From NCBI RefSeq assembly GCF_009377195.2, contig NZ_VJXX01000004.1:186001-250000 (forward strand): DNA of 64,000 nt. Direction: 5' to 3'. Below the pieces are notes generated by a model that saw nothing but the letters and a program-made list of their open reading frames with translations, searched no databases and had not been told where the DNA came from. Position numbers and translations under genes: made by a program. Origin of the DNA: Arthrobacter bussei (GTDB taxonomy: Bacteria; Actinomycetota; Actinomycetes; Actinomycetales; Micrococcaceae). This document shows, piece by piece, positions 2 to 18,490 of the stretch. Position 1 is the stretch's first letter; every line of letters begins with the position of its first letter.

Positions 2-3000
2 CCTCGCGCGCGCCGGCGGTCTCACCGGTACCCGGTCTCAGTTTCGTTCCTGCAGCGCCTCGTCGCGATGTGCCTGGCCGTCGTCCTGGGCGCCGGATCG
101 GTGATCGCCCTGTCCGTGGCAACGGCGCCGAGCGCCGAGGCGGCGCGGATCGCCAACGTGACCGACACCGGAGCAGCGACCTACTCCCAGGTGTTCACGC
201 AGCCGAACGCCGAGAACGTCACCGGCTCGTGGACCGTCGCCGGCAACACCGTGAAGGGAGCCACGGGCGGCACCACCTCGGTGCTGCCGGTCCGCGGTGC
301 CACCGAAGCGACCTTCGCCCCCGGGCTCCCGGCCGGGACGGTCGTCACCCAGCTCGATACCTCGGGGACGGGCTGCACCACCACGCTGAACACCAATGCG
401 TTCTGTGCACCCAACGGTTCCGTCACCATCGCCTTCAGCAAACCCGTGAACAATCCCGTCCTGCACGTCGTCGGGCTGGGCGCCACCACCAGTTCGGGGG
501 GCACCGTCCAGAACACCTACTCGACCTACGGAACCGTCACCTCCGTCCCGGCTGGAGCGACCCTGGGCCAGCCCCAGCCCGGATCCACAAGCCTCGCCGT
601 TGCGAACAACCGCTTCCAGACATCGATCAACCAGCCGAGTACCGCCTGCAACGCGGCCGTTCCCGCGGGCTGCGGCAGCATGGTCATCAATGGCACGGGG
701 CTTACCCAGGTCACGATCACGACGGGCCTGAAGGTCTACGGCGTGGCGACGACGCTGACGGCCACCAACGTCGATCAGTGGAACGCCTTCATCACCCTGC
801 AGGACCAGCCGGTCCCGACGGCGGCTCCGGACACCGCGGCGGTCAAGCGGAACACCCCGGTCACCACCGCCATCCTGGCCAATGACGCGCCGGGCGCAGG
901 CGGTAAGGCCCTGGTACCGGGCTCGGTGATCCTCTCCGCCCCCGGTGTCACGGGCGCCACGGTCAGCGCCGACGGCAAGACGCTGACCGTCCCGAACGAG
1001 GGTACGTACACCGCCAATACCAACGGGCAGGTCGTCTTCACGCCCGTCACCGCGTTCATCGGCACGGCGAGTCCCATCACCTACCGGGTGTCCGACGCCG
1101 ACAACTCGACGGCGTCCTCGACGCTGACCGTCACCGTCACGGCCGATCCCCCCGTTCCGGTGGCGGACGCACCGACCACCACGCAGGGCGTGGCCGTGAC
1201 GTTCGATCCCACGGTCAACGACAACGGCGTCGACTCGCCGATCAACAAACCCTCCGTCCGCCTGCTGGATCCCGCGACCGGCCAGTTCGTCACCTCCCTC
1301 ACCGTCGCGGGCGAGGGTACCTACACCGTCGCCGCGACCGGCGACGTGACTCTCACGCCGGTGGCCGCCTTCGCCGGCGCCGCCCGGCCCGTCACCTACC
1401 GCGTGGCCAACCAGTCCGGCGTCACCGCGACCTCCACCATCACCCCCACCGTCACGGGCGTGGCCCCCCGTGCCGCCGCTGACACCGCCACCACCGGCCA
1501 GAACAACCCGGTGACCCTGAGCCCGGCCGGCAACGACCGCCCGGGGATCGACGGCGGCACGCCGATCGACCCGGCCTCCGTGCGCCTCGTCGGCGCCAAC
1601 GGTGCCCTCGTCACCGACCTCACCATCCCCTCGGGCCGCTTCGTCGTGGACACCTCGACCGGCGTCGTCACCTTCACGCCGGCCCGTGGCTTCACGGGCA
1701 CCACGCCGGCCGTCACCTACCAGGTGGCGGACACCCGTGGTCTGACCGCGCGAAGCACCATCACCGTCGGCGTCAGCGCCGTCACCCCGACCGCGAGCGG
1801 TGACACCGCCGAGACCCGCCAGGGCACCGCCGTCACCCTCGAGGTCGTCGCCAACGACCTCCCGGGTAACGCCAACACCGCGCTGGATCCCCGCACGGTG
1901 GTGCTGTCCGTCCCCGCGAACACACCCGGCGCAGTGCTGTCGGCGGACCGCAAGACCCTCACCGTCCCGAACCAGGGCACCTACACCGTCAACGCGACCA
2001 CAGGTGCCGTGACCTTCCAGCCCGTCACCGCCTTCACCGGGCCCGCCACGGCGGTGCCCTACACCGTGTCCGACGTCGACGGCCGCACCGCGACGGCGAA
2101 CATCACCGTCACCGTCACCGGCGTACCGCCGCGTACCGCCCCGGACACCGTGGTCACCCCGCAGAACACCCCCGTGACCGTGAACCCTGCGGCGAACGAC
2201 GCCCCGGGCATCGACGGCGGTACCCCCGTCAACGCCTCCTCGCTCCGCCTCCTCGGCGCCGACGGCACCGCCGTGGCCACCCTGGCACTCGCGGGCCAGG
2301 GCACGTTCACCGTCAACACAACCTCGGGCGCGGTCACGTTCACGCCCGCCGCCGGGTTCTCCGGGCGCGTACCCGACGTCTCCTACCGCATCGCCGACAC
2401 GGCCGGGCTCACCTCCACGGGCCTCCTGACCGTCTCGGTCACGGCCGTGCGCCCGGTGGCCAACGATGACCGCGGCAGCACCACGCAGGCAGCCGCAGTC
2501 ACGGTGCCCCTCCTCACGAACGACGCCGCGGGCAATGCGGCCACGCCGCTCCGTCCCGCCACCGTGCGGCTCTCCGCCGTCGGCGCGAACACGCCCTCCG
2601 CGGACGGGCGCACCCTCACCGTCGCCGGGCAGGGCACCTACACCGTCGACCCGACGACCGGCGCCGTGCGGTTCGTCCCCGTGGCCGCCTTTACCGGCGC
2701 CACCACCGCGGTGCCCTACACGGTCGCGGACGCCGACGGGACCACCGCCACCGCGAACCTCGTCATCGACGTCGTTCCCGTTGCCCCGCGCGCGGCGAAC
2801 GACGCCGTCGGCACCGACCAGAACACGCCGGTGACCTTCGCGCCCAGCGCCAACGACCGTCCCGGCGTCGACGGCGGCAGTGCCCTCGTGCCCGGCTCCC
2901 TCCGCCTGGTCAACGGCGCCGACCAGGCGGTGACGGACCTGCAGCTCGCCGACGGCCGCTACACCGTCAACACGGCCACCGGCGCCGTCACCTTCACCCC

Positions 3001-6000
3001 GCGCGCGGGCTTCTCCGGCACCATGCCGCAGGTCACCTACGCCATCAGCGACGCCGCGGGCCAGACCTCCCGTGCCACGATCGACGTGCAGGTCGCCGCC
3101 GCCACGCCCGTCGCGAACCCGGACGCGCAGACGACGACGCAGGCCACTGCCGCCACCCTCGATGTGCTCGCCAACGACCGCGCGGGCAACGCGAACACAC
3201 CCCTCGTGCCGGGGACCGTGCGCCTCGTCGCCCCCGCCGGCTCCACCCTCGGCGAGGAGGGTCGCCGCCTCACCGTGCCCGGCCAGGGGACCTACCTCGT
3301 GAACGTCGAGAACGGACGCGTCACCTTCCTCCCGCTCGCCTCCTTCACGGGCAGCGCCACACCGGTGACCTACCGCGTGGCCGACACCAGCGGCACCGTG
3401 GCCGAGTCGCAGCTCAGTGTCACCGTCACCGCCGTCGCCCCACGCGCCACGGACGACGCCCGCACCACACCCCAGAACACCCCCGTGTCACTCGACCCCG
3501 CCGAGAACGACCGCCCCGGAGTGGACGGCGGCAGCGCCGTGGTCCCGAACACCCTCCGCTTCATCGGTGCGAACGGCCAGCTCGTGGAGAGCCTCACCCT
3601 CACCGAGGGCCGCTTCGCAGTCGACACCGCGACCGGTCGCGTCACCTTCACCCCGGCGCCCCGGTTCTCCGGTGTGGTGCCGCAGGTGCGCTACTCCATC
3701 GCCGACGGCAACACCCAGCGCTCCAGCGCCGGGATCAACATCACCGTGACCGCCGCCGTGCCGGTCGCCGCCGACGACGTCGCCACGACACCGCAGGCCT
3801 CCCCGGTGTCCCTCGAGGTGCTCGCCAACGACCGCGCCGGCAATCCCGCACTGCCGCTCGTCCCGGACACCGTGGTCCTCTCCACCGTCGAGGGCGGGAC
3901 GCTCTCCGCCGACCGCAGGCGACTCGAGGTCGCCGGCGAGGGCGTCTACACCGTGAACGTCAGGGGTGTGGTCACCTTCACGCCGGTCACCGCCTTCGTC
4001 GGCACCGCGCGCACTGTCCCGTACTCCGTCTCCGACATCGCCGGGCAGACCTCCTCGGCGCAGCTCACCGTCACCGTCGTCCCCGTGGGTCCCCGCATGG
4101 TGGCCGATGCCGCCGTGACCGAGCAGAATACGCCGGTCACCTTTGCTCCCGGCGCCGACGACCTCCCCGGGGTGGACGGCGGCAGTGCGCCGATCCTCTC
4201 CACCGTCCGCCTCGTCGGCGCCGGTGGCGCCTCCGTGGACACCCTGACCGTCACCGCCGGTGTCTTCACGGTGAACACCGCCAACGGCAACGTCACCTTC
4301 ACGCCCGCAGCCGGCTTCACGGGACTCGTGCCCCAGATCCAGTACCGCATCACGGACGGCAACCAGCAGACCGGCACCGGGACCATCGACGTCCAGGTGA
4401 CGCCCGTGAGCCCCGTCGCGAACGACGACGCCGCTACGACCCCGCAGGCGCAGGCCGTACCCGTGGACGTCATCGCCAACGACCGCGCGGGCAACGCACG
4501 GACCCCGCTCACCGCCGGGTCCGTGGTGCTGTCCGCCCTCGACGGTGTGCAGCCCACGGAGAACGGCAAGCGCCTCGCCGTGGCCGGGCAGGGTGTCTAC
4601 ACCGTCGGGCCCAGCGGCGTCATCACGTTCACGCCCGTGGCATCCTTCACCGGCGCCGCGACACCCGTGGTCTACACGATCGGCGATGCCGACGGACGGA
4701 CGGACAGCGCCGAGCTCAGCATCAGCGTCACTGCCGCGCCGCCGCGGACCGTCGCCGACGCCGCCACCACGCCGCAGAACACGCCCGTGAGCCTCGACCC
4801 GGCGGCCAACGACCTCCCCGGCGTCGACGGCGGCAGCGCCCCCGTCGCAGCGACCGTCCGCCTGCTGACCGCGCAGAACCTGCCGGTCACCGAGTTGTCC
4901 CTGCCCGGTGCCGGCGTCTTCCGCGTCTCCGTGACCGGTACGGTGACGTTCACTCCCGAGCCGGGCTTCAGCGGGTCGGTCCCGCAGGTGCGCTACCGCA
5001 TCAGCGACGGCATCGGACAGTCCTCCACGAGCGTCATCGACCTCCAGGTCGTCGCAGCGCGGCCCGTCGCGAACCCGGACGCCGGGACCACGCGCCAGGG
5101 CACCGTGATCCCGGTGGATCTCGCGGCCAACGACCGCGCAGGCAACGCCGCGCTCCCGCTGGACGCCGCCACCGTGGTCTTCACCGCGATCGCCGGTGGC
5201 ACGCTGTCGGACGACGGCAGGAGCCTGACCGTCGACGGCGAGGGTGTCTACACCCTGGTCGAGGGCGTGGCGACCTTCACGCCCGAGCCCGCCTTCGTGG
5301 GTGCCGCCCGCGCAGTGCCCTACTCCATCAGCGATGCGGCGAGCCAGACGGCTTCCTCGCAGCTCCGCATCACCGTGACGCCCGTGGGCCCCCGCACCGT
5401 GGCGGACGCCGCGGTCACCGAGCGCAACACGCCCGTCACGTTCCAGCCCGGCGAGGACGATCTCCCCGGCGTGGACGGCGGCAGCGCCCCCGTGCTCACC
5501 ACCCTGCGCCTCCTCGACGGCGACGCTCCGGTCACGAGGCTCGCTGTGACCGCGGGCGTATTCACCGTGGACACCGCCACCGGGGATGTCACCTTCCGTC
5601 CCGCCCAGGGATTCACCGGAGAGGTGCCGCAGGTGCGGTACGTCATCACCGACGGCAACCGTGCCACAGGGATCGGCACCATCGACGTCGTCGTCGGTAG
5701 CGCGGTTCCCAGCGCGGGCGACGACACCGCCCGGACGCGCCAGGGCACACCGACCCCGGTCACGGTCCTCGCGAACGACCGCCCCGGCAACGGGGCGACG
5801 CCGCTGGTCCCCGGCAGCGTCGTCCTCACGGGTGCCGGCGGTGGCACGGTGTCCGACGCCGGCAAGACCCTGACGGTCGACGGCCAGGGTGCCTACACGG
5901 TGGACGCCGACGGCGTGGTCACCTTCACGCCCGTCGCTCCCTTCATCGGCGCGACCACGCCGGTCCAGTACCGGGTGTCCGACGTCGACGGCCAGCCGGC

Positions 6001-9000
6001 CACGGCCCTGATCCGCGTGACCGTCGCCCCCGTGGGCCCGCGGATGGTGGCCGATGCCGCCGTGACCGAGCAGAACACGAACGTCACCTTCTTCCCGGGC
6101 GAGGACGATCTCCCCGGCGTCGACGGCGGCTCCGCGCCCGACCTCACGACGCTGCGCCTGCTCGACGGCGACACGCCGGTGGAGACGCTGACCCTCGCCG
6201 AGGGCACCTTCACGGTGGACACCACCACGGGTGCCGTCACCTTCGATCCGGCACCCGGCTTCTCCGGCCGCGTGCCCGAGATCCGCTACCGGATCCTCGA
6301 CGGGAACGGGCAGACCGGGGTCAGCACCATCGATGTCCTCGTCGCGGCCGTCATCCCGGTGGCCAACGACGACGGCGCCACCACGCGCCAGGCGCAGCCG
6401 GCCATCATCCCGGTGGTGGGGAACGATCGCGCCGGTAACGACGCGACCCCGCTCGTCCCCGGAAGCGTCGTCTTCACCGGCGCCGACCAGAGCGGCGGAA
6501 CCCTCTCCGACGACGCCAGGACGCTCACGGTCGACGGCGAGGGCACCTATGCCGTGGACGGGAACGGCGTGGTGACCTTCACGCCGCTCGCGCGCTTCAC
6601 GGGTGCGGCCGCCGAGGTCCAGTACGCCATCCAGGACGTCGACCGGCAGCGCACCACCGCGGTGATCCGCGTGATCGTGACTGCCGTGGGCCCGCGCATG
6701 GTGGCCGATGCAGCCGTGACCGAGCAGAACACGAATGTCACCTTCTTCCCGGGCGAGGACGATCTCCCCGGCGTCGACGGCGGCTCCGCGCCCGACCTCA
6801 CGACGCTGCGACTGCTCGACGGCGACACACCGGTGGAGACGCTGACGCTTGCCGAGGGCACCTTCACGGTGGACACCACCACGGGTGCCGTGACGTTCGA
6901 CCCGGCACCCGGCTTCTCCGGACTCGTGCCCGAGATCCGCTACCGGATCACCGACGGGAACGGGCAGACCGGGGTCAGCACCATCGACGTGACCGTGCAG
7001 CCCGCCGTCGTGCAGGTCAACGACGACCGCATCTCGACGCCGCAGAACGCGCCGGTCACGGTGGCCGTGCTCGGCAATGATGTCGCGGGGAACCAGAACA
7101 CGCCCCTCGACGTCACCAGCGTCCGCCTGCAGACCTCGGACGGCGTCGCTCCCTCGGCGGACGGCCTCAGCCTGACGTTCCCGAACCAGGGCACCTTCAC
7201 CGTGAACACCACCACGGGCGCGGTCGTCTTCGTCCCCGTCGCGGCGTTCACCGGGGCCACCCGGGCCGTCACCTACTCGGCGGCGGACGTCGACGGCAGC
7301 ACGGGCACCGCAACCATTGTGGTCGACGTCGCCGCCGTGGCCCCCCGCGCAGCAGCGGATGCGCAGACCACCGAGCAGAACACGCCCATCACCTTCCCCG
7401 TCGCGGCGAACGATCGCCCCGGGGTCACCGGCGGAGCGCCCGTCGTCCCTTCGAGCGTCCGTCTGGTCGGTGCGGGCGACGCGCTGGTCACCACTCTCGC
7501 CATCGCCGGTCGGGGAGTCTTCACGGTCGCCGCGAACGGTGACGTGACCTTCACGCCGGAGGAGGGCTTCACGGGTCGGGTGAATCAGATCCAGTACTCG
7601 ATCGCGGACACGAACAACCTGCGCTCACGGGCCACCGTCGACATCACGGTCAGCGTGGTCACGCCGACCGCCGACGCCGACATCGCGCGGACGCCCCAGG
7701 GCCGTGCAATAGCCCTCGACATCCTGGACAACGACCTGCCCGGCAACGTGAACACCCCGCTCGCTCCGAGCAGCGTGGTCCTCAGCGCGCCGGGCATCGC
7801 CGGGGCGGAGGTGTCGCCGGACGGCCGCACCGTGGTCGTGCCGGATGAGGGCACCTACGCCTACACCACCGACGGGACGGTGAGTGACCTGACGTTCACG
7901 CCGCTCCCGGCCTTCGTGGGAGCTGCACGCGCCATCACCTACTCGGTGTCCGACGTCGACGGCTCGGTCGACACCGCGACGGTCACGGTCACGGTCGACG
8001 CCGTGGCGGCACGCGCCATCGCGGACGGCTACTCCACGGGCCAGAACCAGCCCATCACGTTCTCCCCGGCGGCCAACGACCTCCCCGGTGTCACGGGCGG
8101 CAGCGCCGTGGTCCCGAGCACGCTCCGATTGGTGGGGCCCGGTACCACCTTCGTGACGGAGCTCGACGTCGAGGGCGGCCTGTTCACCGTGGACGTCGGA
8201 ACCGGCGAGGTGACATTCACTCCGGACGCCACCTTCTCCGGACCTGTGCCCACCGTGTCCTACCGGGTCGCGGACGGCAACCGGCTCACCAGCACGGCAA
8301 CGATCGACATCGCCGTCGCGGCCAGCATGCCGATGGTCAACGACGACGCCGCCCGCAGCCTGCAGGGCGAACCAGCGTCGGTGAACGTCCTCGCGAACGA
8401 CCGCCCGGGCAATGCCGGTACCCCGTTCGTCGCGGCCACCGTGGTGCTCCGCGAGATCGAGGGAGGCGTGCTGTCCGAGGACGGCAAGACTCTGACGATC
8501 GACGGCCAGGGCACCGTCGAGGTGGCGCCGGACGGCACCGTCACGTTCACCCCCGTGGCCCGCTTCGTCAACGACGCCACAGTGGTCACGTACGCGGTGA
8601 CGGATGCCGGCGGCAACGTGGCAGAGGGCGCCATCGCCTTCAGCGTCACTCCGCTGGGCCCGCGGGCTCTCGCCGACGCGGCGTCGACAGGCCAGAACAC
8701 TCCGGTGACCCTCGAGGTCCTCGCCAACGACACGCCGGGTGTCGAGGGCGGCAGTGCCATCGACCCCGCCACGGTCGAGTTCATCGGTGCAGCCGATGAC
8801 GGCTCGTTCACCACGGCCGGTGGAAACTTCCGCGTGGACGGCGCCGGCGTCGTCACCTTCGCCCCCGCGCCCGGCTTCAGCGGTAACGCGACCGCCGAGT
8901 ACCGCGTGACGGACGTCGCCGGAGCCACGGGCCAGGCCGTCGTCACGGTCCGCGTGGTCGGCGTGCGGCCGGTCGCGAACAACGACGCCGAGACCACCGG

Positions 9001-12000
9001 TCAGGGCGAAGCCGTGCGTGCGATCGTGCTCGACAACGATCGTCCCGGCAACGCTGCCACCCCCCTCGACATCTCCAGCGTGCAGCTCGAGGCCCTTCCC
9101 GGCGCCGGCCCCACGCTCGAGGGGAAGGAACTGACGGTCCCGAACCAGGGCACCTACCGTGTCGACGCCGCCGGCGTCATCACGTTCACGCCGCTCGCCG
9201 CCTTCACCGGCGACGCGACGCCCGTTCCCTACGTGGTGTTCGACGCCGACCGTCAACCCGCCCGCGCCACCCTCTCGGTCACGGTCGCAGCCGCGGCTCC
9301 GCGCGCCGTCGCGGATGCGGCGTCCACGCCGCAGAACACGCCCGTGACACTGGACCCCGCGGCCAACGACCTCCCGGGTGTCGACGGCGGAAGCGCGCCG
9401 GTCGCGGCGTCCGTGCGACTGCTCGACGGCGACCAGGCCGTCACCACCCTCGACGTCGACGGCGGCACCTTCGCGGTCGACATCGAGACGGGCATCGTGA
9501 CGTTCACGCCAGACCTCGCCTTCAGCGGAGCGGTGCGGCCGGTGACCTACCGGGTGTCCGACGCCAATGACCGGAGCTCCACGTCGACGCTCACCGTCGT
9601 CGTCCGCGGGGCCACCCCCATCGCGAACCCCGACATCGTCACCACGCGCCAGGACCAGGATGCGATCATCCCGGTGGTCGCCAATGACCGGCCCGGCAAT
9701 GCGAACCTGCCGCTGGTCGCGGGCAGCGTGGTCTTCACCGGAGTGGGAGGAGTCCTCTCCGATGACGGCAGGACGCTGACGGTCAGCGGGGAGGGCGTGT
9801 ACAGGGTCGATGCCGACGGGATCGTGACGTTCGACCCCGAGGCGGGCTTCGTGAACGCAGCCACCGAGGTGGAGTACTCCATCCGCGACATCGCCGACCA
9901 GCTCGCCACGGCGAGGATCCGCGTGACGGTGACCCCGGTGGGTCCCCGCATGGTCGCGGACGCCGCGGTGACGCAGCAGAACACACCCGTCACCTTCCAG
10001 CCGGGCGAGGACGATCTCCCCGGCGTGGACGGCGGCAGCCCCGTGGATCTCAGCACGCTGCGCCTGCTCGACGGCACCACGCCCGTGGACACGCTGACGG
10101 TCGCGGGCGCCGGTACCTTCACGGTGAACAGGGCCACCGGCGACGTCACCTTCGTGCCGGTGGCAGGCTTCACCGGAACTGTGCCCGAGGTGCGGTACCA
10201 GGTCGAGGACGGCAACGGACAGGTGGGCACCACCTCGATCGACATCCTCGTGACCGCCGTGACCCCGGTGGCCAACCCGGACGAGAGGACCACGCGCCAG
10301 GACGAGACCGTGATCATCCCCGTGGTCCTGAATGACCGCCCGGGCAACGACAACACTCCGCTGGATCCGGCCACCGTCGTCTTCACGGGCGAGGGCGGCG
10401 GGATCGTCTCCAACGCGGGCAAGACCCTCACCGTCACGGATCAGGGCGACTACACCATCGACGACGACGGCGTGGTCACCTTCGACCCGCAGGCGGCCTT
10501 CGTGGGTACGGCTACACCGGTGCAGTACTCGGTCCGGGACGTCGACGGCCAGACCGTCACGGCCCAGATCCGCGTGACCGTCACCGCCGTGGGACCGCGC
10601 TTGGTGGCGGACGCCGCCGTGACGCAGCAGAACACGCCCGTGACCTTCCAGCCCGGCGAAGACGATCTCCCCGGCGTCGACGGCGGCAGCCCGGTGGACC
10701 TCACCACGCTGCAGCTCCTCGACGGCGACGAGCCCGTGGACACCCTGAGGCTGCCCCAGGGCACCTTCACCGTGAACAGGGCCACCGGCGACGTCACCTT
10801 CACCCCTGCCGCCGGAGTGGTCGGCGCCGTCCCCGAGATCCGCTACCAGGTGCAGGACGGCAACGGGCAGGTGGGAATCAGCACGATCGACATCTTCGTC
10901 ACCGGCGTCACGCCCGTCGCCAACTTGGACGTCGTCTCGACGCGCCAGGACGAGAACGCGGTCATCCCTGTCGTTGCCAACGACCGCCCGGGCAATGAGC
11001 GCACGCCGCTCGATCCTGCGACCGTGGTGTTCACGGGCGTGGGGGGTACCGTCTCGGACGGCGGCAGGACGCTGACGGTCGACGGCGAGGGTGTCTACAC
11101 GGTCGACGGGGACGGCGTGGTCACCTTCGATCCCGAGGCCTCGTTCGTGAACGACGCCACGCCGGTGCAGTACTCGATCGAGGACGCCGACGGTCGCACC
11201 GTCACCGCCGAGATCCGTGTGACCGTGAGCCCGGTCGGGCCGCGCATGGTGGCGGACGCCGCCGTGACGCAGCAGAACGTCCCGGTGACCTTCCAGCCGG
11301 GGGCGGACGACCTCCCCGGCGTCGACGGAGGCAGCCCCGTGGACCTCACCACGCTGCGCCTGCTCGACGGCGACGAGCCCGTGGACACGCTGTCCCTGCC
11401 CCAGGGCACCTTCACGGTGAACAGGGCCACCAGTGATGTCACCTTCGACCCCGAGGACGGCTTCAGCGGCTCGGTACCGACGGTCCTCTACCGGGTGGAG
11501 GACGGCAACGGGCAGATCGGTACCAGCACCATCAGCATCACCGTGGGCTCCGTGACACCCGTCGCGGGCGAGGACCTCCTGACCACGCGTCAGGCAGTCC
11601 CGGCCACGGCGAACCTGCTCGCGAACGACGTCCCGGGCAACGGGGCGACGCCGCTGGATCCCACCACCGTGGTCTTCACGGGCGTGGGCGGAGGAACGGT
11701 CTCGAACAACGGGAAGACCCTCACGGTCTCCAACCAGGGCGTCTACACGGTGGACGCCGACGGCGGACTGGTGTTCACCCCTCAGGTGGGCTTCGTCAAC
11801 GCCGCCTCGCCGGTGCAGTACCGGGTGGCCGACGTCGACGGTCAGACCACCACGGCGACCATCCGCGTGACGGTCACGCCGGTGGGCCCGCGCATGGTCG
11901 CGGACGCCGCGGTCACGCAGCAGAACATGCCGGTCACCTTCCAGCCCGGTGAGGACGACCGCCCCGGCGTGGACGGCGGCAGCGACGTCGACCTCGGCTC

Positions 12001-15000
12001 GCTCCGCCTGCTCGGCGCGAACGACGCCCCGGTCACGGTGCTCACCCTCGACGAGGGCGTGTTCCGGGTGAACACGGCGAACGGCGATGTCACCTTCACG
12101 CCGGCAGCCGGCTTCGCCGGACCCGTGCTCGAGGTGCGTTACCGCGTGCTGGACGGCAACGGCCAGGTGGGCATCAGCACCATCGACGTCCTCGTCACGG
12201 CGGTCACTCCGGTGGCGAACCCGGACCTGGCGACCACGCGTCAGGCGCAGGCAGCCGTGATCGACGTCGTCGCCAACGACCGCCCCGGCAACGACAACAC
12301 CCCGCTGGACCGCACCTCCGTGATCTTCACGGGCGACGGCGGAGGGGTGGTCTCGGACAACGGGAAGACGCTCACCGTCGCCGACCAGGGCGTCTACCGG
12401 ATCAACGCGAGCGGAGTGGTGACGTTCACGCCCGCAGCCTCCTTCGTGGGGGAGGCCACCGCCGTCGAGTACGAGGTCCAGGACGCCGACGACCTCGCCG
12501 TCAGGGCGGACATCCGCGTGACGGTGACCCCGGTGGGCCCGCGCATGGTCGCGGATGCCGCGGTGACGCAGCAGAACACCCCGGTCACGTTCCAGCCCGG
12601 CGCCGACGACCTCCCCGGCGTCACCGGCGGAAGCCCGGTCGACGTGACCTCGGTGCGCCTGCTCAACGGCACCGCCCCGGTGACCGTGCTGTCCCTCACG
12701 GACATCGGCGTCTTCCGGGTCGACGCCACCAACGGTGACGTGACCTTCACGCCGGCCGCCGGGTTCTCCGGTGCCGTGCCCGAGGTGCGTTACCAGATCG
12801 AGGACGGCAACGGCCAGGTGGGTGTCAGCACCATCGACATCCTCGTCACCGGGGTCACGCCGACCGCGGGCAACGATTCCGGGACCGTTCTCCAGGGCGA
12901 GGTCTCGAGCATCGACGTCCTCGCCAACGACGTACCCGGCAACGCGCGGACCCCGCTCGTCCCCGAGGGCCTGGTACTCGGCGCGGTGGACGGCGGAACC
13001 CTCTCCGAGGACGGCCGGACGCTCGCCGTCCCGAACCAGGGCACCTGGCGCGTGCAGGGGAGCACTGTCACCTTCACTCCGATCGCCTCCTTCACGGGGG
13101 TGGCCACCCCCGTGACCTACACCGTGCAGGACAGCGACGGACAGCCGGCGACGGCGACCATCACGGTCTCCGTCACCGCCGTGGCTGCCGTGGCCGTGGC
13201 CGACGCCGTGACCACCGAGCAGAACACGGCCGTCACGTTCGCCCCGGCCGAGAACGACCGCGCCGGCGTCCAGGGCGGCAGCGCCCCGGTGCCGGCGAGC
13301 GTACGGCTCCTGGATGCGGCAGGTGCCGAGGTCACCGAGCTGGTGCTCGCCGCGGGGAGGTTCACGGTGGACACCGACACCGGACGCGTGACCTTCACGC
13401 CCGCCGTCGGCTTCGCCGGCAGCGTGCCGGAGGTGCGCTACAGCATCCGTGACGGCATCGGTCAGCGCTCGGTCGGCTCCATCTCCCTCGACGTCGTGTC
13501 CGTCGCCCCGGTGGCGAACGCGGACAGCAGGACGACGACGCAGGCCGAGGCCGTCCCGGTGCCGGTCCTCGCCAACGACCTCCCCGGCAACGAGGCATCA
13601 CCCTTCGACCCCGCCACCGTGACGCTCGGCGGCCCGGACGGCAGCGGCGCTGAGCTCTCCGAGGACCGCCGGACGCTCCAGGTCCCGGGTCAGGGCACCT
13701 TCAGGGTGGATCCTGCTTCCGGCACTGTCCTGTTCACGCCGGTACCCGCCTTCACGGGAACCACCGCAACCGTGACGTACACCGTGCGTGACATCAACGG
13801 CACGGAGGTCTCCTCGACACTGTCCGTGACCGTCACCCCGGTGGCGCCCCGCGCCGTGGCCGACGCCGTGACCACCCAGCAGAACGTGGGCGTCACGATC
13901 ACCTCGGCCGCGAACGACCTCCCGGGAGTGACCGGCGGCAGCACGCCGCTGGCCTCCTCCGTGAGGCTCGTGGACCCGGCAACCGGCGACGCCGTGGACA
14001 TCCTCGTCGTCACCGGTGGCGTGTTCACCGTGGACACTTCGACCGGCTCCGTGCGCTTCGAACCCACACAGGGCTTCGCCGGCGCGGTGCCGCAGGTCGA
14101 GTACGTGATCACCGACGGCAACGGGCAGTCCTCGCGCTCGACCATCGATGTCAGCGTCGACGCCGTCTCACCCACGGCGGGCAACGATCCCGTCGAGGTG
14201 GCGCAGGGCGGGTCCGCACGGATCACCGTCCTCGCGAACGACACCGCGGGCAACGCCGCGACGCCGCTGGTACCGGGCTCCGTGGTGCTCACGGCGGTGG
14301 AGGGCGGCCAGCTCTCCGCCGACGGCCGCACCCTGGTGGTCCCCGGCCAGGGCACCTACACGGTGGACGCGGAGTCGGGTGTCGTCGTCTTCGATGCCGA
14401 TCCGGCCTTCACGGGCCGGGCCACGAGCGTGACCTACACGGTCACGGACGTGGACGGCACCTCCGCCGGCGCCTCGATCCAGGTCGAGGTCACACCCGTG
14501 GCACCGCGCGCGGTCGACGACGTCGTCCGCACCGGCCAGAACCAGCAGGTCACCTTCGACCCAGCGGCGAACGACCGCCCCGGGGTGGACGGCGGCACGC
14601 CGCTCGTTCCCGCCTCGGTGCGACTGCTCGACGCAGCGGGCGCCGAGGTCACGGAGCTCGTCCTCGCAGCGGGCACGTTCACCGTGGATCCCGCCACCGG
14701 CAGCATCACCTTCGCACCGGCTCAGGGATTCACCGGGACGGTCCCGCAGGTGACCTACGTGGTCACGGACGGCAACGGCTCGCGTGGTACGGCCGGCATC
14801 AGCCTCACGGTGCTGCTCGTCAACCCGGTGGCCAACGACGACTCCGCGTCCACCGTCCAGGGCCGTGCGGTCTCCGTCGACGTCCTCAGGAATGATCTCG
14901 CGGGCAACGACGAGACGCCGTTCGACCCGACCACCGTGGTGCTGAATGCCGTGGACGGCGGAGAGCTCTCGGCCGGTGGCCGCCAGCTCGACGTCCCCGG

Positions 15001-18000
15001 TGAGGGCACCTGGACGGTCGCTCCCGACACCGGGGTGGTGACGTTCCTGCCGGAGCCCGGCTTCGCGGGAACGGCCACGACGGTCACCTACACGGTGCGT
15101 GACGTGGACGGGCAGGGCGTGTCCGCGGACATCACGGTCGAGGTGACCGCCGTCGGGCCCCGTGTCCGCGCGGATGCCGTCGGCACGGCCCAGAACACGC
15201 CGGTGACGCTCGATCCCGCGGCGAACGACCTGCCGGGGATCGAGGGCGGCAGCGCCCCCGACCGCGCCACCCTCCGGTTCGTGGACGGGGACGGGCAGCT
15301 CGTCACCACGCTCACCGTCAGCGGGGGCAGCTACACGGTGGACACCACCACGGGCATCGTCACCTTCCGGCCGACCACCGGCTTCATCGGTTCGGCCGCG
15401 ACCGTGACCTACTCGATCGCGGATGCGAACGGGGAGCGCGGCCAGGCGACCATCGACGTCGCGGTGGGGGCCACGGCCCCCACAGCGAACGACGACGCCG
15501 CCACCACCACTCAGGGCGCGTCCGTGCCGATCGAGGTCCTCGGGAACGACGTCCCCGTGGACGGGCAGACACCGCTCGTCCCCGGATCCGTCACACTGCG
15601 GCCGCTCGCCGGCGCCGAGCTGTCCGAGGACCGCCGCACGCTCGTGGTCCCCGGCCAGGGCACCTGGACCGTCGGCGCCGACGGTGCCATCACCTTCCAG
15701 CCGGTAGTCCTCTTCGTGGGGGCCACCTCGCCCGTGACCTACGTGGTCCTCGACGACAACGGCGAAGTGGCCTCGGCCGCCGTCGTCGTCGACGTCGAGG
15801 GTGTGGGTCCGCGCGCGACGGCGGACACCACGCGCACCGGCCAGAACACGCCGGTGACCCTCGCGCCGGCCGCCAACGACCTGCCCGGTGTCGAGGGGGG
15901 CACGCCGGTCGATCCGGCCTCCGTGCGCCTGCTCGATGCGGACGGCGGACCCGTGCAGGAGCTCGCCGTCGACGGCGGCACCTTCACGGTGGACACGGCG
16001 ACGGGCGGGATCACCTTCACGCCGGCACCCGGATTCGCCGGGTCGGTGGGGACCGTGCGCTACGTCGTCGCCGACACGGGCGGCCGCACGGCCACCTCGA
16101 CGATCGACATCAGCGTGCTCGCGGTCACCCCGCTCGCCGGGGACGACGCCGTGACCACCCGGCAGGGCGTCCCGGTCACCGTGGACGTGCTCGGGAACGA
16201 CTCCGCGGGCAACGACACCACTCCGCTCGATCCGGCCACGGTGGTCCTCACCGCGCCGGCGGGTGTGGAGGGTGCCGAGCTGTCCGAGGACGGGAAGACG
16301 CTGCAGGTACCCGGCGAGGGTACCTACCGCGTGGATCCGGAGACCGGTGCCATCACCTTCACCCCCGCAGGTTCCTTCACGGGTACCGCGGCGCCGGTGA
16401 CCTACGCGGTCAGCGACGTCGACGGCGCCACGGTGAGCGCGTCCTTCACCGTGACGGTGGCCGCGGTGTCACCGCTCGCTCGGGACGATTCCGCGGTCAC
16501 CGAGCCGGAGACGGCGGTGCGGATCGACGTGCTGTCCAATGATCAGCCGGGCAGCGCCGGCGCCCTCCTGGTGCCCACGAGCGTCGGGCTCCTGGCGCCC
16601 GAGGGCGTCGAGGATGCCGTGCTCAGCGCCGACGGCCGGGGCCTGCTCGTGCCCGGCGAGGGCACCTACTCGGTGAACGCATTCACCGGGGAGGTCACCT
16701 TCACGCCGGCGGACGGCTTCGACGGGACCACCACGGCGGTCGGGTACTCGGTGGCCGATACGAACGGCACCCGGACGCAGGCACGCATCGTCGTCGTCGT
16801 CGGTGACGCTGCGCCGGGCCTCGCGGTGGACAAGATCGCGGCACTCGAGGACGCCAACGAGAACGGTGTGGCGGACCCGGGCGAGACCATCAGGTACGTC
16901 TTCGACGTCACGAACACCGGCAACGTCACCCTGACCGACGTCGCCGTCCAGGATCCGAAGGTCACGGGGCTCGCCCCCGAGTCCGCGACGATCCGGCGCG
17001 GCGAGACGGTCCGCTTCACCGCCGACCCCTACACGGTGACGGCGGAGGACATCGCCGCAGGCGCCGCGGACAACTCGGCGACGGCGACCGGACGCACGGC
17101 CGCCGTGCCGGGAGCGCCCGCCGAGGCCGTGCAGAGCGCGCCGGACACCACGAGCACGGTGACGGTGGAGCGTGAGGCACTGCTGACGGTCGAGAAGACC
17201 GCCGAGCTGTCGGGTGACGACGACATCGCGAACGAGGGCGAGATCATCACCTACTCGTTCCGGGTCCGGAACGCCGGCAACGTGGTCATCAGCGGTGTCA
17301 CGGTCGACGACCCTCAGGTCACCTTCCCCGACACCGGTGATCTCACGCTGGCACCGGGGGAGGCGCGCACGCTCGAGGCCGATCCGTACCGCGTGACGGC
17401 GGAGGACGTCGCCGCGGGCTCCGTGCTCAACACGGCGACCGTGGGCGGTACGGCCCCGACGCTGCCGAACGGGGATCCGGCGCCGCCGGTGCTCTCGGCA
17501 CCGTCGACCGTCGAACTGCCCGCCGGTGATCCGGAGCTGGTGCTCGAGAAGATCGCCGACCTCGACGACGTCAACGGGAACGGGCTCGCCGACGCCGGTG
17601 AGACCATCGCGTACTCGTTCAGGGTCACCAACACCGGGCCCGTCCTCATCGAGGACGTCCGGGTGGAGGACGATCGCGTCACGGGTCTGGACGAGCCTCG
17701 CGGCATCGCTCCTCGTGCCACGGAGACGTTCGAGGCCGACCCGTACGTGGTCACGGACGAGGACGTCACCGTCGGCTCGATCACCAACACCGCGCGGGCC
17801 TTCGGGTTCCTCGACGGCGAGCGGATCGGGTCGCCGCAGGACACGGTCACCACCACGCCCGTCCCGGCCCGGCCCTCGGTGAACGTCGAGAAGGACGTCT
17901 CGGCGGGCGACGACGGAGACGTCACCGACGGCCAGGACGTCGACTACACGGTCACGGTGAAGAACGACGGCAACGTGGACCTCGCCGAGGCGGTGGTCGA

Positions 18001-18490
18001 GGACGACCTGACGGACGTGCTGGACGACGCCATGCTGAAGCCCGGCACCTCGGCCACCAGGGGCGAGGTGACCGTCACCGGCGGGCAGTTGCGCTGGACC
18101 GGTCCGCTCGCCATCGGCGAGGAGGCCGTGATCACCTACGGTGTGACGGTCTCCGGCGACTCCGGCGACTCCGGCGACTCCGGCAACGGGGTGCTCCGGA
18201 ACTCGGCGACCGCCATCGGCGTCGTCGATCCGCCGGTCGATCCGCCTGCCGGTCCTGTTGATCCGCCCGTGGATCAGCCGGCGCCACCGACGCCTGCTCC
18301 GCCGGTCACCGACGGCGACGTCACGGTCAACCCCGTGGTGGACGCTCCGCCGGTGGTCCACCCGATCCCGGGGCTCGCCGTGACCGGCGCACAGCTGACA
18401 GGGATCGTCGCCTCCGCGCTCGGCCTGCTCGTGGCCGGCGGAATCGCACTGGTGGTCATCCGGCGGAGACGCGCGGCGGCGGACGACTAG
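2..18490 (+). CDS. Giant cell-wall-anchored fibrillar adhesin with CshA-like repeats (5' end outside window)
   Basis: The reading frame is open to the left edge. An Arg-rich stretch ending HRYPVSVSFLQRLVA precedes the hydrophobic core and SAEAA cleavage site, so the Met at 68 is probably internal to the signal peptide and the true start lies upstream. After the signal comes a non-repetitive head (to about nt 814) holding four Cys residues, possibly two disulfides. About 49 repeats of roughly 109 residues follow (815-16803), resembling CshA-type fibril repeats. Four DUF11-like domains (about 16807-18230) share an ExxxYxxxVxNxG pattern. A Pro/Asp/Val-rich linker leads to LAVTG (18374-18388), a membrane helix and an Arg cluster. 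LAxTG is the signal preferred by class E sortases of high-GC Gram-positives, so the protein should be covalently wall-linked. CshA-family proteins form surface fibrils and bind host or partner-cell ligands; the ligand here is unknown. No sortase gene is in the window. Confidence 0.9.
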   Translation, partial: PRARRRSHRYPVSVSFLQRLVAMCLAVVLGAGSVIALSVATAPSAEAARIANVTDTGAATYSQVFTQPNAENVTGSWTVAGNTVKGATGGTTSVLPVRGATEATFAPGLPAGTVVTQLDTSGTGCTTTLNTNAFCAPNGSVTIAFSKPVNNPVLHVVGLGATTSSGGTVQNTYSTYGTVTSVPAGATLGQPQPGSTSLAVANNRFQTSINQPSTACNAAVPAGCGSMVINGTGLTQVTITTGLKVYGVATTLTATNVDQWNAFITLQDQPVPTAAPDTAAVKRNTPVTTAILANDAPGAGGKALVPGSVILSAPGVTGATVSADGKTLTVPNEGTYTANTNGQVVFTPVTAFIGTASPITYRVSDADNSTASSTLTVTVTADPPVPVADAPTTTQGVAVTFDPTVNDNGVDSPINKPSVRLLDPATGQFVTSLTVAGEGTYTVAATGDVTLTPVAAFAGAARPVTYRVANQSGVTATSTITPTVTGVAPRAAADTATTGQNNPVTLSPAGNDRPGIDGGTPIDPASVRLVGANGALVTDLTIPSGRFVVDTSTGVVTFTPARGFTGTTPAVTYQVADTRGLTARSTITVGVSAVTPTASGDTAETRQGTAVTLEVVANDLPGNANTALDPRTVVLSVPANTPGAVLSADRKTLTVPNQGTYTVNATTGAVTFQPVTAFTGPATAVPYTVSDVDGRTATANITVTVTGVPPRTAPDTVVTPQNTPVTVNPAANDAPGIDGGTPVNASSLRLLGADGTAVATLALAGQGTFTVNTTSGAVTFTPAAGFSGRVPDVSYRIADTAGLTSTGLLTVSVTAVRPVANDDRGSTTQAAAVTVPLLTNDAAGNAATPLRPATVRLSAVGANTPSADGRTLTVAGQGTYTVDPTTGAVRFVPVAAFTGATTAVPYTVADADGTTATANLVIDVVPVAPRAANDAVGTDQNTPVTFAPSANDRPGVDGGSALVPGSLRLVNGADQAVTDLQLADGRYTVNTATGAVTFTPRAGFSGTMPQVTYAISDAAGQTSRATIDVQVAAATPVANPDAQTTTQATAATLDVLANDRAGNANTPLVPGTVRLVAPAGSTLGEEGRRLTVPGQGTYLVNVENGRVTFLPLASFTGSATPVTYRVADTSGTVAESQLSVTVTAVAPRATDDARTTPQNTPVSLDPAENDRPGVDGGSAVVPNTLRFIGANGQLVESLTLTEGRFAVDTATGRVTFTPAPRFSGVVPQVRYSIADGNTQRSSAGINITVTAAVPVAADDVATTPQASPVSLEVLANDRAGNPALPLVPDTVVLSTVEGGTLSADRRRLEVAGEGVYTVNVRGVVTFTPVTAFVGTARTVPYSVSDIAGQTSSAQLTVTVVPVGPRMVADAAVTEQNTPVTFAPGADDLPGVDGGSAPILSTVRLVGAGGASVDTLTVTAGVFTVNTANGNVTFTPAAGFTGLVPQIQYRITDGNQQTGTGTIDVQVTPVSPVANDDAATTPQAQAVPVDVIANDRAGNARTPLTAGSVVLSALDGVQPTENGKRLAVAGQGVYTVGPSGVITFTPVASFTGAATPVVYTIGDADGRTDSAELSISVTAAPPRTVADAATTPQNTPVSLDPAANDLPGVDGGSAPVAATVRLLTAQNLPVTELSLPGAGVFRVSVTGTVTFTPEPGFSGSVPQVRYRISDGIGQSSTSVIDLQVVAARPVANPDAGTTRQGTVIPVDLAANDRAGNAALPLDAATVVFTAIAGGTLSDDGRSLTVDGEGVYTLVEGVATFTPEPAFVGAARAVPYSISDAASQTASSQLRITVTPVGPRTVADAAVTERNTPVTFQPGEDDLPGVDGGSAPVLTTLRLLDGDAPVTRLAVTAGVFTVDTATGDVTFRPAQGFTGEVPQVRYVITDGNRATGIGTIDVVVGSAVPSAGDDTARTRQGTPTPVTVLANDRPGNGATPLVPGSVVLTGAGGGTVSDAGKTLTVDGQGAYTVDADGVVTFTPVAPFIGATTPVQYRVSDVDGQPATALIRVTVAPVGPRMVADAAVTEQNTNVTFFPGEDDLPGVDGGSAPDLTTLRLLDGDTPVETLTLAEGTFTVDTTTGAVTFDPAPGFSGRVPEIRYRILDGNGQTGVSTIDVLVAAVIPVANDDGATTRQAQPAIIPVVGNDRAGNDATPLVPGSVVFTGADQSGGTLSDDARTLTVDGEGTYAVDGNGVVTFTPLARFTGAAAEVQYAIQDVDRQRTTAVIRVIVTAVGPRMVADAAVTEQNTNVTFFPGEDDLPGVDGGSAPDLTTLRLLDGDTPVETLTLAEGTFTVDTTTGAVTFDPAPGFSGLVPEIRYRITDGNGQTGVSTIDVTVQPAVVQVNDDRISTPQNAPVTVAVLGNDVAGNQNTPLDVTSVRLQTSDGVAPSADGLSLTFPNQGTFTVNTTTGAVVFVPVAAFTGATRAVTYSAADVDGSTGTATIVVDVAAVAPRAAADAQTTEQNTPITFPVAANDRPGVTGGAPVVPSSVRLVGAGDALVTTLAIAGRGVFTVAANGDVTFTPEEGFTGRVNQIQYSIADTNNLRSRATVDITVSVVTPTADADIARTPQGRAIALDILDNDLPGNVNTPLAPSSVVLSAPGIAGAEVSPDGRTVVVPDEGTYAYTTDGTVSDLTFTPLPAFVGAARAITYSVSDVDGSVDTATVTVTVDAVAARAIADGYSTGQNQPITFSPAANDLPGVTGGSAVVPSTLRLVGPGTTFVTELDVEGGLFTVDVGTGEVTFTPDATFSGPVPTVSYRVADGNRLTSTATIDIAVAASMPMVNDDAARSLQGEPASVNVLANDRPGNAGTPFVAATVVLREIEGGVLSEDGKTLTIDGQGTVEVAPDGTVTFTPVARFVNDATVVTYAVTDAGGNVAEGAIAFSVTPLGPRALADAASTGQNTPVTLEVLANDTPGVEGGSAIDPATVEFIGAADDGSFTTAGGNFRVDGAGVVTFAPAPGFSGNATAEYRVTDVAGATGQAVVTVRVVGVRPVANNDAETTGQGEAVRAIVLDNDRPGNAATPLDISSVQLEALPGAGPTLEGKELTVPNQGTYRVDAAGVITFTPLAAFTGDATPVPYVVFDADRQPARATLSVTVAAAAPRAVADAASTPQNTPVTLDPAANDLPGVDGGSAPVAASVRLLDGDQAVTTLDVDGGTFAVDIETGIVTFTPDLAFSGAVRPVTYRVSDANDRSSTSTLTVVVRGATPIANPDIVTTRQDQDAIIPVVANDRPGNANLPLVAGSVVFTGVGGVLSDDGRTLTVSGEGVYRVDADGIVTFDPEAGFVNAATEVEYSIRDIADQLATARIRVTVTPVGPRMVADAAVTQQNTPVTFQPGEDDLPGVDGGSPVDLSTLRLLDGTTPVDTLTVAGAGTFTVNRATGDVTFVPVAGFTGTVPEVRYQVEDGNGQVGTTSIDILVTAVTPVANPDERTTRQDETVIIPVVLNDRPGNDNTPLDPATVVFTGEGGGIVSNAGKTLTVTDQGDYTIDDDGVVTFDPQAAFVGTATPVQYSVRDVDGQTVTAQIRVTVTAVGPRLVADAAVTQQNTPVTFQPGEDDLPGVDGGSPVDLTTLQLLDGDEPVDTLRLPQGTFTVNRATGDVTFTPAAGVVGAVPEIRYQVQDGNGQVGISTIDIFVTGVTPVANLDVVSTRQDENAVIPVVANDRPGNERTPLDPATVVFTGVGGTVSDGGRTLTVDGEGVYTVDGDGVVTFDPEASFVNDATPVQYSIEDADGRTVTAEIRVTVSPVGPRMVADAAVTQQNVPVTFQPGADDLPGVDGGSPVDLTTLRLLDGDEPVDTLSLPQGTFTVNRATSDVTFDPEDGFSGSVPTVLYRVEDGNGQIGTSTISITVGSVTPVAGEDLLTTRQAVPATANLLANDVPGNGATPLDPTTVVFTGVGGGTVSNNGKTLTVSNQGVYTVDADGGLVFTPQVGFVNAASPVQYRVADVDGQTTTATIRVTVTPVGPRMVADAAVTQQNMPVTFQPGEDDRPGVDGGSDVDLGSLRLLGANDAPVTVLTLDEGVFRVNTANGDVTFTPAAGFAGPVLEVRYRVLDGNGQVGISTIDVLVTAVTPVANPDLATTRQAQAAVIDVVANDRPGNDNTPLDRTSVIFTGDGGGVVSDNGKTLTVADQGVYRINASGVVTFTPAASFVGEATAVEYEVQDADDLAVRADIRVTVTPVGPRMVADAAVTQQNTPVTFQPGADDLPGVTGGSPVDVTSVRLLNGTAPVTVLSLTDIGVFRVDATNGDVTFTPAAGFSGAVPEVRYQIEDGNGQVGVSTIDILVTGVTPTAGNDSGTVLQGEVSSIDVLANDVPGNARTPLVPEGLVLGAVDGGTLSEDGRTLAVPNQGTWRVQGSTVTFTPIASFTGVATPVTYTVQDSDGQPATATITVSVTAVAAVAVADAVTTEQNTAVTFAPAENDRAGVQGGSAPVPASVRLLDAAGAEVTELVLAAGRFTVDTDTGRVTFTPAVGFAGSVPEVRYSIRDGIGQRSVGSISLDVVSVAPVANADSRTTTQAEAVPVPVLANDLPGNEASPFDPATVTLGGPDGSGAELSEDRRTLQVPGQGTFRVDPASGTVLFTPVPAFTGTTATVTYTVRDINGTEVSSTLSVTVTPVAPRAVADAVTTQQNVGVTITSAANDLPGVTGGSTPLASSVRLVDPATGDAVDILVVTGGVFTVDTSTGSVRFEPTQGFAGAVPQVEYVITDGNGQSSRSTIDVSVDAVSPTAGNDPVEVAQGGSARITVLANDTAGNAATPLVPGSVVLTAVEGGQLSADGRTLVVPGQGTYTVDAESGVVVFDADPAFTGRATSVTYTVTDVDGTSAGASIQVEVTPVAPRAVDDVVRTGQNQQVTFDPAANDRPGVDGGTPLVPASVRLLDAAGAEVTELVLAAGTFTVDPATGSITFAPAQGFTGTVPQVTYVVTDGNGSRGTAGISLTVLLVNPVANDDSASTVQGRAVSVDVLRNDLAGNDETPFDPTTVVLNAVDGGELSAGGRQLDVPGEGTWTVAPDTGVVTFLPEPGFAGTATTVTYTVRDVDGQGVSADITVEVTAVGPRVRADAVGTAQNTPVTLDPAANDLPGIEGGSAPDRATLRFVDGDGQLVTTLTVSGGSYTVDTTTGIVTFRPTTGFIGSAATVTYSIADANGERGQATIDVAVGATAPTANDDAATTTQGASVPIEVLGNDVPVDGQTPLVPGSVTLRPLAGAELSEDRRTLVVPGQGTWTVGADGAITFQPVVLFVGATSPVTYVVLDDNGEVASAAVVVDVEGVGPRATADTTRTGQNTPVTLAPAANDLPGVEGGTPVDPASVRLLDADGGPVQELAVDGGTFTVDTATGGITFTPAPGFAGSVGTVRYVVADTGGRTATSTIDISVLAVTPLAGDDAVTTRQGVPVTVDVLGNDSAGNDTTPLDPATVVLTAPAGVEGAELSEDGKTLQVPGEGTYRVDPETGAITFTPAGSFTGTAAPVTYAVSDVDGATVSASFTVTVAAVSPLARDDSAVTEPETAVRIDVLSNDQPGSAGALLVPTSVGLLAPEGVEDAVLSADGRGLLVPGEGTYSVNAFTGEVTFTPADGFDGTTTAVGYSVADTNGTRTQARIVVVVGDAAPGLAVDKIAALEDANENGVADPGETIRYVFDVTNTGNVTLTDVAVQDPKVTGLAPESATIRRGETVRFTADPYTVTAEDIAAGAADNSATATGRTAAVPGAPAEAVQSAPDTTSTVTVEREALLTVEKTAELSGDDDIANEGEIITYSFRVRNAGNVVISGVTVDDPQVTFPDTGDLTLAPGEARTLEADPYRVTAEDVAAGSVLNTATVGGTAPTLPNGDPAPPVLSAPSTVELPAGDPELVLEKIADLDDVNGNGLADAGETIAYSFRVTNTGPVLIEDVRVEDDRVTGLDEPRGIAPRATETFEADPYVVTDEDVTVGSITNTARAFGFLDGERIGSPQDTVTTTPVPARPSVNVEKDVSAGDDGDVTDGQDVDYTVTVKNDGNVDLAEAVVEDDLTDVLDDAMLKPGTSATRGEVTVTGGQLRWTGPLAIGEEAVITYGVTVSGDSGDSGDSGNGVLRNSATAIGVVDPPVDPPAGPVDPPVDQPAPPTPAPPVTDGDVTVNPVVDAPPVVHPIPGLAVTGAQLTGIVASALGLLVAGGIALVVIRRRRAAADD
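815..16803 (+). repeat. About 49-unit CshA-like repeat array, two alternating repeat types
   Basis: I counted 49 units by eye. Type A carries a core like ANDRPGNxxTPL, followed by GxTLTVxGQGTYTV and VTFTPxxxFxG. Type B carries QNTPVTF, then DLPGVDGGS, GxFTVxxxTGxVTFTP and a DGNGQ-like segment. From unit 3 to unit 48 the types alternate strictly B-A (23 dyads of about 654 nt). The first two units and the last A-like unit (about 16470-16803) are more divergent. Repeats contain essentially no Cys and little Lys, and are rich in Thr, Val, Asp, Gly and Ala, as expected for beta-sandwich stalk modules. Confidence 0.85.
18152..18187 (+). repeat. 9-bp in-frame tandem repeat (SGD units) in the last DUF11-like domain
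   Basis: The nonamer TCCGGCGAC occurs three times in a row, followed by a fourth copy with one change. It encodes SGDSGDSGDSGN inside the fourth DUF11-like domain of the giant adhesin. Unit gain or loss would keep the frame, so this is a possible length-variable loop. Confidence 0.8.

Follow-up and report, generated by a model that had tools for sequence, protein, structure and literature searches.

The window, the whole 64,000-nucleotide stretch of DNA analysed here (C34:186001-250000 of a draft genome of 3.63 Mb in 42 contigs, 99% complete; GC 67-73% across the window), opens with a gene that probably encodes a single-chain fibrillar surface protein, whose head and neck would form a portable tip and whose stalk keeps neighbouring domains dissimilar by alternating two repeat types. 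We propose, tentatively, something broader: that one locus occurs in three states within one genus (empty, sortase pilus or giant single-chain fibril) and keeps the same tip, and that long bacterial Ig-like stalks repeatedly and independently reach two- or four-type alternation, which would let them be long without misfolding or recombinational shrinkage.

The fibril gene is one uninterrupted open frame in the window (2-18490, + strand, 6,162 codons), and the in-window part of its product has a mass of ~619 kDa. The real start is likely an in-frame TTG 8 nt upstream of the window's first base, behind AGGGGA with a 6 nt spacer (both read by eye in L006), from which the protein has a probable full length of 6,165 aa. 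The features of the gene and its downstream flank were as follows.

2..139, + strand: signal peptide (as read from the window, residues 1-46); its counterpart in the tip protein of relative G329 is 67% identical
140..811, + strand: four-cysteine head domain, of a family with no Pfam, NCBIfam or PDB match
815..1465, + strand: neck, formed of units 1 (B-like) and 2 (weakly A-like), retained with the head in relatives G329 and G731
1466..16471, + strand: alternating array, units 3-48, made of 23 A-B dyads of CshA-type Ig-like domains
6038..6330, + strand: unit 17, a near-copy of unit 19 (~6692-6985), a conversion-like tract with approximate ends
16472..16813, + strand: unit 49, B-like and out of the alternation
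16814..18220, + strand: four DUF7507/DUF7927/DUF11-type domains at the wall-proximal end (Pfam; starts by eye)
18374..18487, + strand: LAVTG sorting signal, membrane stretch and RRRR tail
18622..19854, - strand: saccharopine dehydrogenase-like gene, a flank outside the fibril gene, which in the empty-site relative G020 adjoins the gene that precedes the fibril gene here

In residues, the head spans 47-270 and units 1-49 span 272-5604; the four DUF7507/DUF11-type domains start at 5,607, 5,727, 5,845 and 5,959 (by eye), and LAVTG, at 6,125, is followed by a hydrophobic stretch and RRRR (by eye). The head holds four cysteines (with one more in the signal peptide) and the array none. The array has a net charge of -317 and 13 lysines in 5,333 residues, so that most of the 49 units cannot form isopeptide links, and isopeptide-linked units were rejected. 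Further downstream lies an ordinary housekeeping neighbour, a phosphoenolpyruvate carboxylase gene (window 23415-26258).

The stalk consists of 49 units of 103-114 residues each. Their boundaries were picked by hand with the aid of a pattern and re-found by a profile (49 matches), which is circular in that the profile was made from the same units. PF19076 and TIGR04225 were both over cut-off in all four quarters of the protein, with 11, 15, 15 and 8 stretches, again 49. A genome search with TIGR04225 gave 48 single matches at E<=1e-5, and all among the matches listed fall in the fibril gene; most single matches are individually below the 60-bit cut-off. Together with the LAVTG signal, membrane stretch and RRRR tail, these family matches bear out the preliminary description of a giant wall-anchored protein with CshA-type repeats.

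That description had also claimed an alternation of types A and B from unit 3 to unit 48 in 23 dyads, which unlabelled clustering, separate A and B profiles and shuffles all confirmed. Two-way clustering without labels gave 2112121212...1212122, that is, strict alternation over units 3-48; of the end units, 1 and 49 were B-like and 2 weakly A-like. Mean identity was 54% within A, 49% within B and 36% between types, and mean identity at lags 1, 2, 3 and 4 was 0.36, 0.55, 0.36 and 0.54, with none of 5,000 shuffles of unit order reaching the observed lag-2 minus lag-1 difference. Within units 3-48, neighbours had a mean identity of 0.351 and a maximum of 0.453 (45 pairs), and next-but-one units a mean of 0.555 and a minimum of 0.355 (44 pairs). 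Profiles of odd and even units told these 46 units apart by margins of 52 to 125 bits, every one of the correct sign, in a partly circular comparison. Forty alignment columns differ sharply between the types: type A has R at position 2 and PGVDGG, and type B has V or T at position 2, PGN..TPL and a four-residue insert.

At fourfold-degenerate third positions, agreement was 0.502 for A-A (expected 0.459), 0.501 for B-B and 0.483 for A-B pairs, where codon usage alone predicts about 0.46. As synonymous sites are near saturation, the A and B types are old and most units parted long ago; judged from these codons, the types stayed distinct while their silent sites were scrambled. Lag-2 pairs were somewhat closer (0.526 against an expected 0.460, pair 17/19 excluded), reaching 0.80 for units 38/40, 0.70 for 14/16, 0.69 for 31/33 and 0.68 for 35/37, suggesting that copying or conversion continued. 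Units 17 and 19 (window 6038-6330 and 6692-6985) share 93% of amino acids, 92.5% of DNA and 0.84 of fourfold sites, being near-identical over ~300 bp, and look like an A-to-A conversion tract that leapt over a differing B unit. Type-A units 29-37 are up to 80% identical. Clade tests of growth from units 1-2 versus import of a ready stalk rejected neither, with p-AU of 0.62 (B) and 0.31 (A) for array units alone, and 0.59 (B) and 0.26 (A) with Cryobacterium units added.

Sequences flanking the fibril gene are conserved in congeners that carry something else at the site. Flank identity to G329 was 80% in DNA over 7.5 kb upstream and 82% over 5.5 kb downstream, and to G731 it was 74-86%. Between these syntenic flanks, both relatives have a gene that shares the signal peptide, head and units 1-2 and continues into a SpaA-type stalk; identity of the G329 tip gene to the window was 67% in the signal peptide, 58% in the head, 77% in unit 1 and 84% in unit 2. 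Downstream of the G329 tip gene are a SpaH/EbpB-family major pilin (301.5 bits, cut-off 95) and a class C sortase (257 bits, cut-off 160), to which the G731 proteins are 92% and 94% identical. The relative with the most similar flanks, G020 (94-95% identical to the window's), is without the fibril gene and has an empty site, the fibril-upstream gene adjoining the saccharopine dehydrogenase-like gene; its major pilin and class C sortase lie elsewhere, on contig C5.

The upstream gene, which we take to be ydeI-like, had no family match. Its own matches numbered 36, in 35 of 38 genomes, and 30 loci were compared: 14 were empty (a downstream flank gene adjoining), four occupied (the window, G329, G731 and G021) and 12 not judgeable within 1.5 kb. 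In G021 (L166:4467-11743) the same pilus operon was seen at the locus (pilin 87%, sortase 85%), with a SpaA stalk at 70% and a signal peptide at 60%. Its head differs: it gave no match to the head profile, and Pfam found DUF7933 and SpaA-type domains. As the same mast carries a different head there, head and mast seem to be exchanged separately.

The preliminary description had called the protein CshA-like, which holds for the stalk and fails for the head, where there was neither a CshA_NR2 match nor a GEVED domain behind it. The window head matched nothing in Pfam at E<=1 or in NCBIfam at E<=0.1, and the head profile had no PDB match at E<=1. Kinship with CshA_NR2 (PF18651) was ruled out by sequence: there were no NR2 matches in the window's own genome and none in the head at E<=1, and hhalign of a 16-head alignment against a four-member NR2 alignment gave a probability of 0.04%; the two could nonetheless share a fold. 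Nor was GEVED (PF20009) among the Pfam matches of residues 1-1470 at E<=0.01; it does occur in the head proteins of G151, G644 and G702. Searched against Pfam, the 16 aligned heads gave just two single matches (0.03-0.07), each in one member. Three cysteines are among the positions conserved in all 16 aligned heads.

As a single query the head matched one of 38 relatives (its own genome) and seven of 394 genomes of the class. A four-row head profile found it in 16 of 347 genomes of the order (own included, three marginal) and 3 of 38 of the genus (own included). Matches in G347, G374 and G394 (E 1.6e-5 to 4.6e-4) were left out of the head set, as were those in G433, G532 and G622 (E 2.7e-4 to 8.5e-4), which still stand inside the count of 16 of 347; G367 (E 8.3e-5) stayed in, since its head is followed by a GEVED-like stretch and by CshA units. 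The stalks behind these heads are of CshA type in the window, G644 and G367, SdrD_B in G413 and DUF7507 in G436 (10) and G151 (51, counted with a profile of its own units); Big_9 stalks (G521a) and SpaA-type stalks occur as well. The G151 gene (L047/L048, G151:C1:2973107-2992426, - strand) is a 6,440-codon frame of the same head family with GEVED, 51 DUF7507-type repeats of period four and an LPDTG anchor. G521 has two head genes (L109 and L110), one in a pilus operon and one, G521a, in a 5,466-codon frame with ~36 Big_9-type units and SpaA_3 domains too.

Of the 16 aligned heads, 12 could be judged for neighbouring genes, contig ends or N runs excluding G367, G203, G492 and G630. A pilin and class C sortase, all over cut-offs, lie beside six (G329, G702, G521b, G473, G643 and G534). 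None was found beside the other six (the window, G151, G436, G521a, G644 and G413) by tblastn with the two G329 proteins at 1e-4, in searches that took in 1.5 to 18 kb upstream and 5 to 45 kb downstream. A seventh pilus case, G731, was added later, and G521 holds one of each mast. SpaA-type domains were present in all five pilus tips scanned (G329, G702, G521b, G473 and G534), and also in G521a and, weakly, in G413. Because of the last two, the groups are divided by neighbouring genes and long single-family arrays and not by SpaA; G521a, single-chain and with SpaA_3, makes stalk content split less cleanly than neighbouring genes do. As the mast classes were set up with the loci already in view, and these loci are related, the count describes and does not test. 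The L(P/A)xT(G/A) anchor pattern was found in none of four of the six pilus tip frames (G521b, G473, G643 and G534), and the G643 frame may be broken. On the head tree the mast types are mixed: the label needs three changes, and shuffled labelings needed as few in 79 of 500 cases for pilus and in 97 of 500 for single, so the tree does not show mast types to be clustered. An AU test rejected each mast type as one clade (p 3e-4 and 9e-54), with groups named post hoc, the four unjudged rows counted outside and two rows long-branched.

At the window's own locus, no major pilin or class C sortase was found beside the fibril gene in the window and its flanks, and we do not class the gene as a sortase-pilus tip; genome-wide, nothing matched a major pilin and nothing passed the class C sortase cut-off, a single 40-bit match being the class E gene. 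The preliminary description had staked its reading on the presence of a class E sortase, and the genome has one, at 232.7 bits (cut-off 160). Three further sortases had class F as their best model (166.5, 165.4 and 114.8 bits; cut-off 166, one just over). Class E sortases take LAxTG, and the fibril protein, with an LAxTG-type signal and this enzyme in the same genome, is a candidate class E substrate. The NCBIfam model Microco_LAVTG covers the anchor fully, at 23.2 bits, below its cut-off of 27. We infer that the class E sortase fixes the fibril protein to the wall at LAVTG.

An A-B-A model (units 29-31), made from an alignment of 22 window triplets, reached a mean pLDDT of 96.4 and a pTM of 0.80. 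A Foldseek search of the PDB turned up tandem domains of cadherin, Ig and RTX-adhesin type; over the 50 matches listed, E ran from 3e-12 to 1e-9 and TM by query length from 0.17 to 0.41. As modelled, the domain fold is clear, and the placement of the domains is unmatched among these structures. By sequence, a search of residues 1-1470 found one CshA entry, 6szc (E 5e-5, around unit 2). In the A-B-A model these are ordinary tandem beta-sandwich domains, which leaves unsupported the earlier suggestion of heterodimer-like steps; the alternation is accounted for no less well by divergence of neighbours (for folding or recombination) or by mere history.

By the usual yardstick of 3.5-4 nm per domain, the domains would stack into a rod of, very roughly, 170-200 nm, and the ~170 nm suggested earlier is a plausible guess. 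This rod would hold the head out as a tip adhesin; a single-sequence structure model of the head was useless (pLDDT 35.9), so the word adhesin rests on the head's position. Head and neck would act as a portable tip, and as the same tip sits on a sortase pilus at the same locus in two congeners, the long single chain may stand in for pilus polymerisation here. The two old alternating types would keep neighbours ~35% identical, the likeliest gain being less domain-swap misfolding and less slippage between neighbours; that folding or recombination is the reason for the alternation is something we infer.

Other arrays were compared with that of the window. Among 38 relatives TIGR04225 was over cut-off only in the window genome, three having a match at 1e-5; among 394 genomes of the class (own included), 18 had a match at 1e-10 and 12 were over cut-off. 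The window array is the longest of CshA type met in this analysis, the next-longest being those of G644, with 29 units in a frame of 3,599 codons, and G367, in a frame of 3,399 codons. Clear alternation was seen in four of the nine other arrays put to the test and marginal alternation in one; three do not alternate, and the ninth has period 4. The uncorrected counts of lag-2 shuffles reaching the observed value, out of 5,000, were 0 for G644 and G521, 19 for G203 and Cryobacterium, 242 for G413a, 931 for G153, 2,647 for G303 and 3,639 for G367; the 51-unit DUF7507 array of G151 gave 221 at lag 2 and peaked at lag 4. The absence of alternation in G367 (11 units), G153 (6) and G303 (7) means that it is no general need.

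Units of <76 residues were excluded before the units were compared by profile. Left out of the lag test, although each had at least two unit matches, were G295 (L084), G082 (L085), G052 (L086), a second G367 frame (L049:12043-14667), G492 (L117), G033 (L010), G329 (2 units) and G413b (4 units, clustered only). A short-peptide-pattern scan of genome contigs, which is no census, gave 183 stretches, with one confirmed, in Cryobacterium tepidiphilum. The 33 records of a plasmid search were all <60% identical. In G413 a CshA array (L080, G413:C3:1738191-1741910) is interrupted by an in-frame TAG, which leaves frames of 1,181 and 559 codons, through decay or sequencing error. Beside the CshA array of G303, a genome without such a head in the set, the class C sortase query had a weak match (32% identity, 8e-8). 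A unit tree (FastTree, short sequences) grouped the window's A and B units with the odd and even units of Cryobacterium; G203, G413 and G303 have another type pair in common, and G644 has its own, visible in clustering only with three clusters allowed. Despite sharing the type pair of G203, G303 does not pass the lag test. More than one origin or fixation of alternation follows, provided that this tree is correct.

It is quite possible, short of probable, that the alternation is mere history, two-unit blocks having been copied without selection. Block copying is the simplest source of a period of 2, the DUF7507 array of G151 shows a period of 4 (lag-4 identity 0.66), and the closeness of lag-2 pairs at fourfold sites, marked in some (0.80 for 38/40), points to ongoing copying or conversion. 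Yet the types differ sharply at 40 columns although fourfold sites are near saturation over all pairs, only unit 25 of the 46 array units has a quarter that is not nearer its own type, and other arrays have type pairs of their own in the unit tree. The reading in which divergent neighbours avoid misfolding has evidence against it too, since in G521 the alternation is weak and neighbours are 59% identical. Unlikely, in our estimate, are specific A-B and B-A interfaces, in which type-specific loops would hold adjacent units together as a stiff rod or coordinate calcium at their junctions: the type-specific residues do include loop-like stretches (PGVDGG in A; PGN..TPL and the four-residue insert in B) and the array has its net charge of -317, but Foldseek returned generic tandem beta-sandwiches.

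A length-varying stalk of the Periscope type, as in streptococcal CshA, seems very improbable. The repeat family is the same, and S. gordonii CshA is listed as a Periscope Protein in the part of PMC8201768 consulted; that class was recognised by tandem repeats of 80% identity or more, whereas neighbours in units 3-48 average 35% with a maximum of 45.3%, and of the closest pairs listed none but units 17/19 (93%) and 29/31 (80%) attain 80%, neither pair adjacent. We rejected the class for this array on repeat identity. Scarcely any weight can be given to an assembly artefact or decaying pseudogene: long repeats are a known assembly risk and the genome is a draft in 42 contigs, but the repeats diverge (92.5% DNA identity for the top unit pair, 81% for the next), the frame is open throughout and the flanks are syntenic. 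A single-chain fibril with alternating stalk units and a portable tip is our preferred reading. With one tip borne on either of two mast types at a single locus within the genus, nature has set up an experiment on what a pilus can do that a long single chain cannot, and vice versa. The strict alternation is a clear-cut example of the rule that adjacent Ig-like domains should differ, with no pair of 45 above 45.3% and like units always two steps away. The head represents a family, still lacking a model, whose members turn up both in pilus tip proteins and in giant surface proteins.

The general case, that divergence of neighbours counters misfolding, is already in print: the parts consulted of PMC4660218, PMC8201768 and PMC9704523 state that low neighbour identity does so, and the authors of PMC4647330, as far as consulted, name slippage and misfolding as reasons for module diversity in BAP. 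In a literature search that reached few subscription papers, and those in part, we noticed none that describes CshA stalks with two alternating types or a swap between pilus and fibril at a single locus. The comparisons that follow rest, for published systems, on excerpts of the papers cited.

Like CshA/CshB of S. gordonii (PMC10952558), the window protein is a single chain with a stalk of CshA_repeat domains (PF19076/TIGR04225), an N-terminal non-repeat head and a C-terminal sortase anchor. It differs in having 49 units against 17 in CshA, LAVTG in place of LPxTG, two alternating types (alternation being measured on the window side only) and a head unrelated by sequence to NR2, with GEVED not found. 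The Cryobacterium tepidiphilum protein (L039:7466-11737) has units of the same A and B types, with alternation clear over the first six and units 7 and 8 fitting unclearly; unlike the window protein, it has a CshA_NR2 head with GEVED, a 1,424-codon frame and an LAHTG anchor. The SpaA-type pilus tip proteins of the same genus (G329 in L046, G731 in L160) share locus, signal peptide, head and units 1-2, and differ in the SpaA-type stalk and in the SpaH/EbpB-family major pilin and class C sortase that follow. Acinetobacter BAP (PMC4647330) likewise has a giant Ig-like stalk of diversified modules, but of several module types and in a Gram-negative, strict two-type alternation not being among the features described in the text consulted. 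Titin Ig arrays (PMC4660218) resemble the fibril in their tandem Ig-like domains with divergent neighbours and belong, by contrast, to an intracellular muscle protein among whose features, as described in the portion consulted, two-type alternation does not appear.
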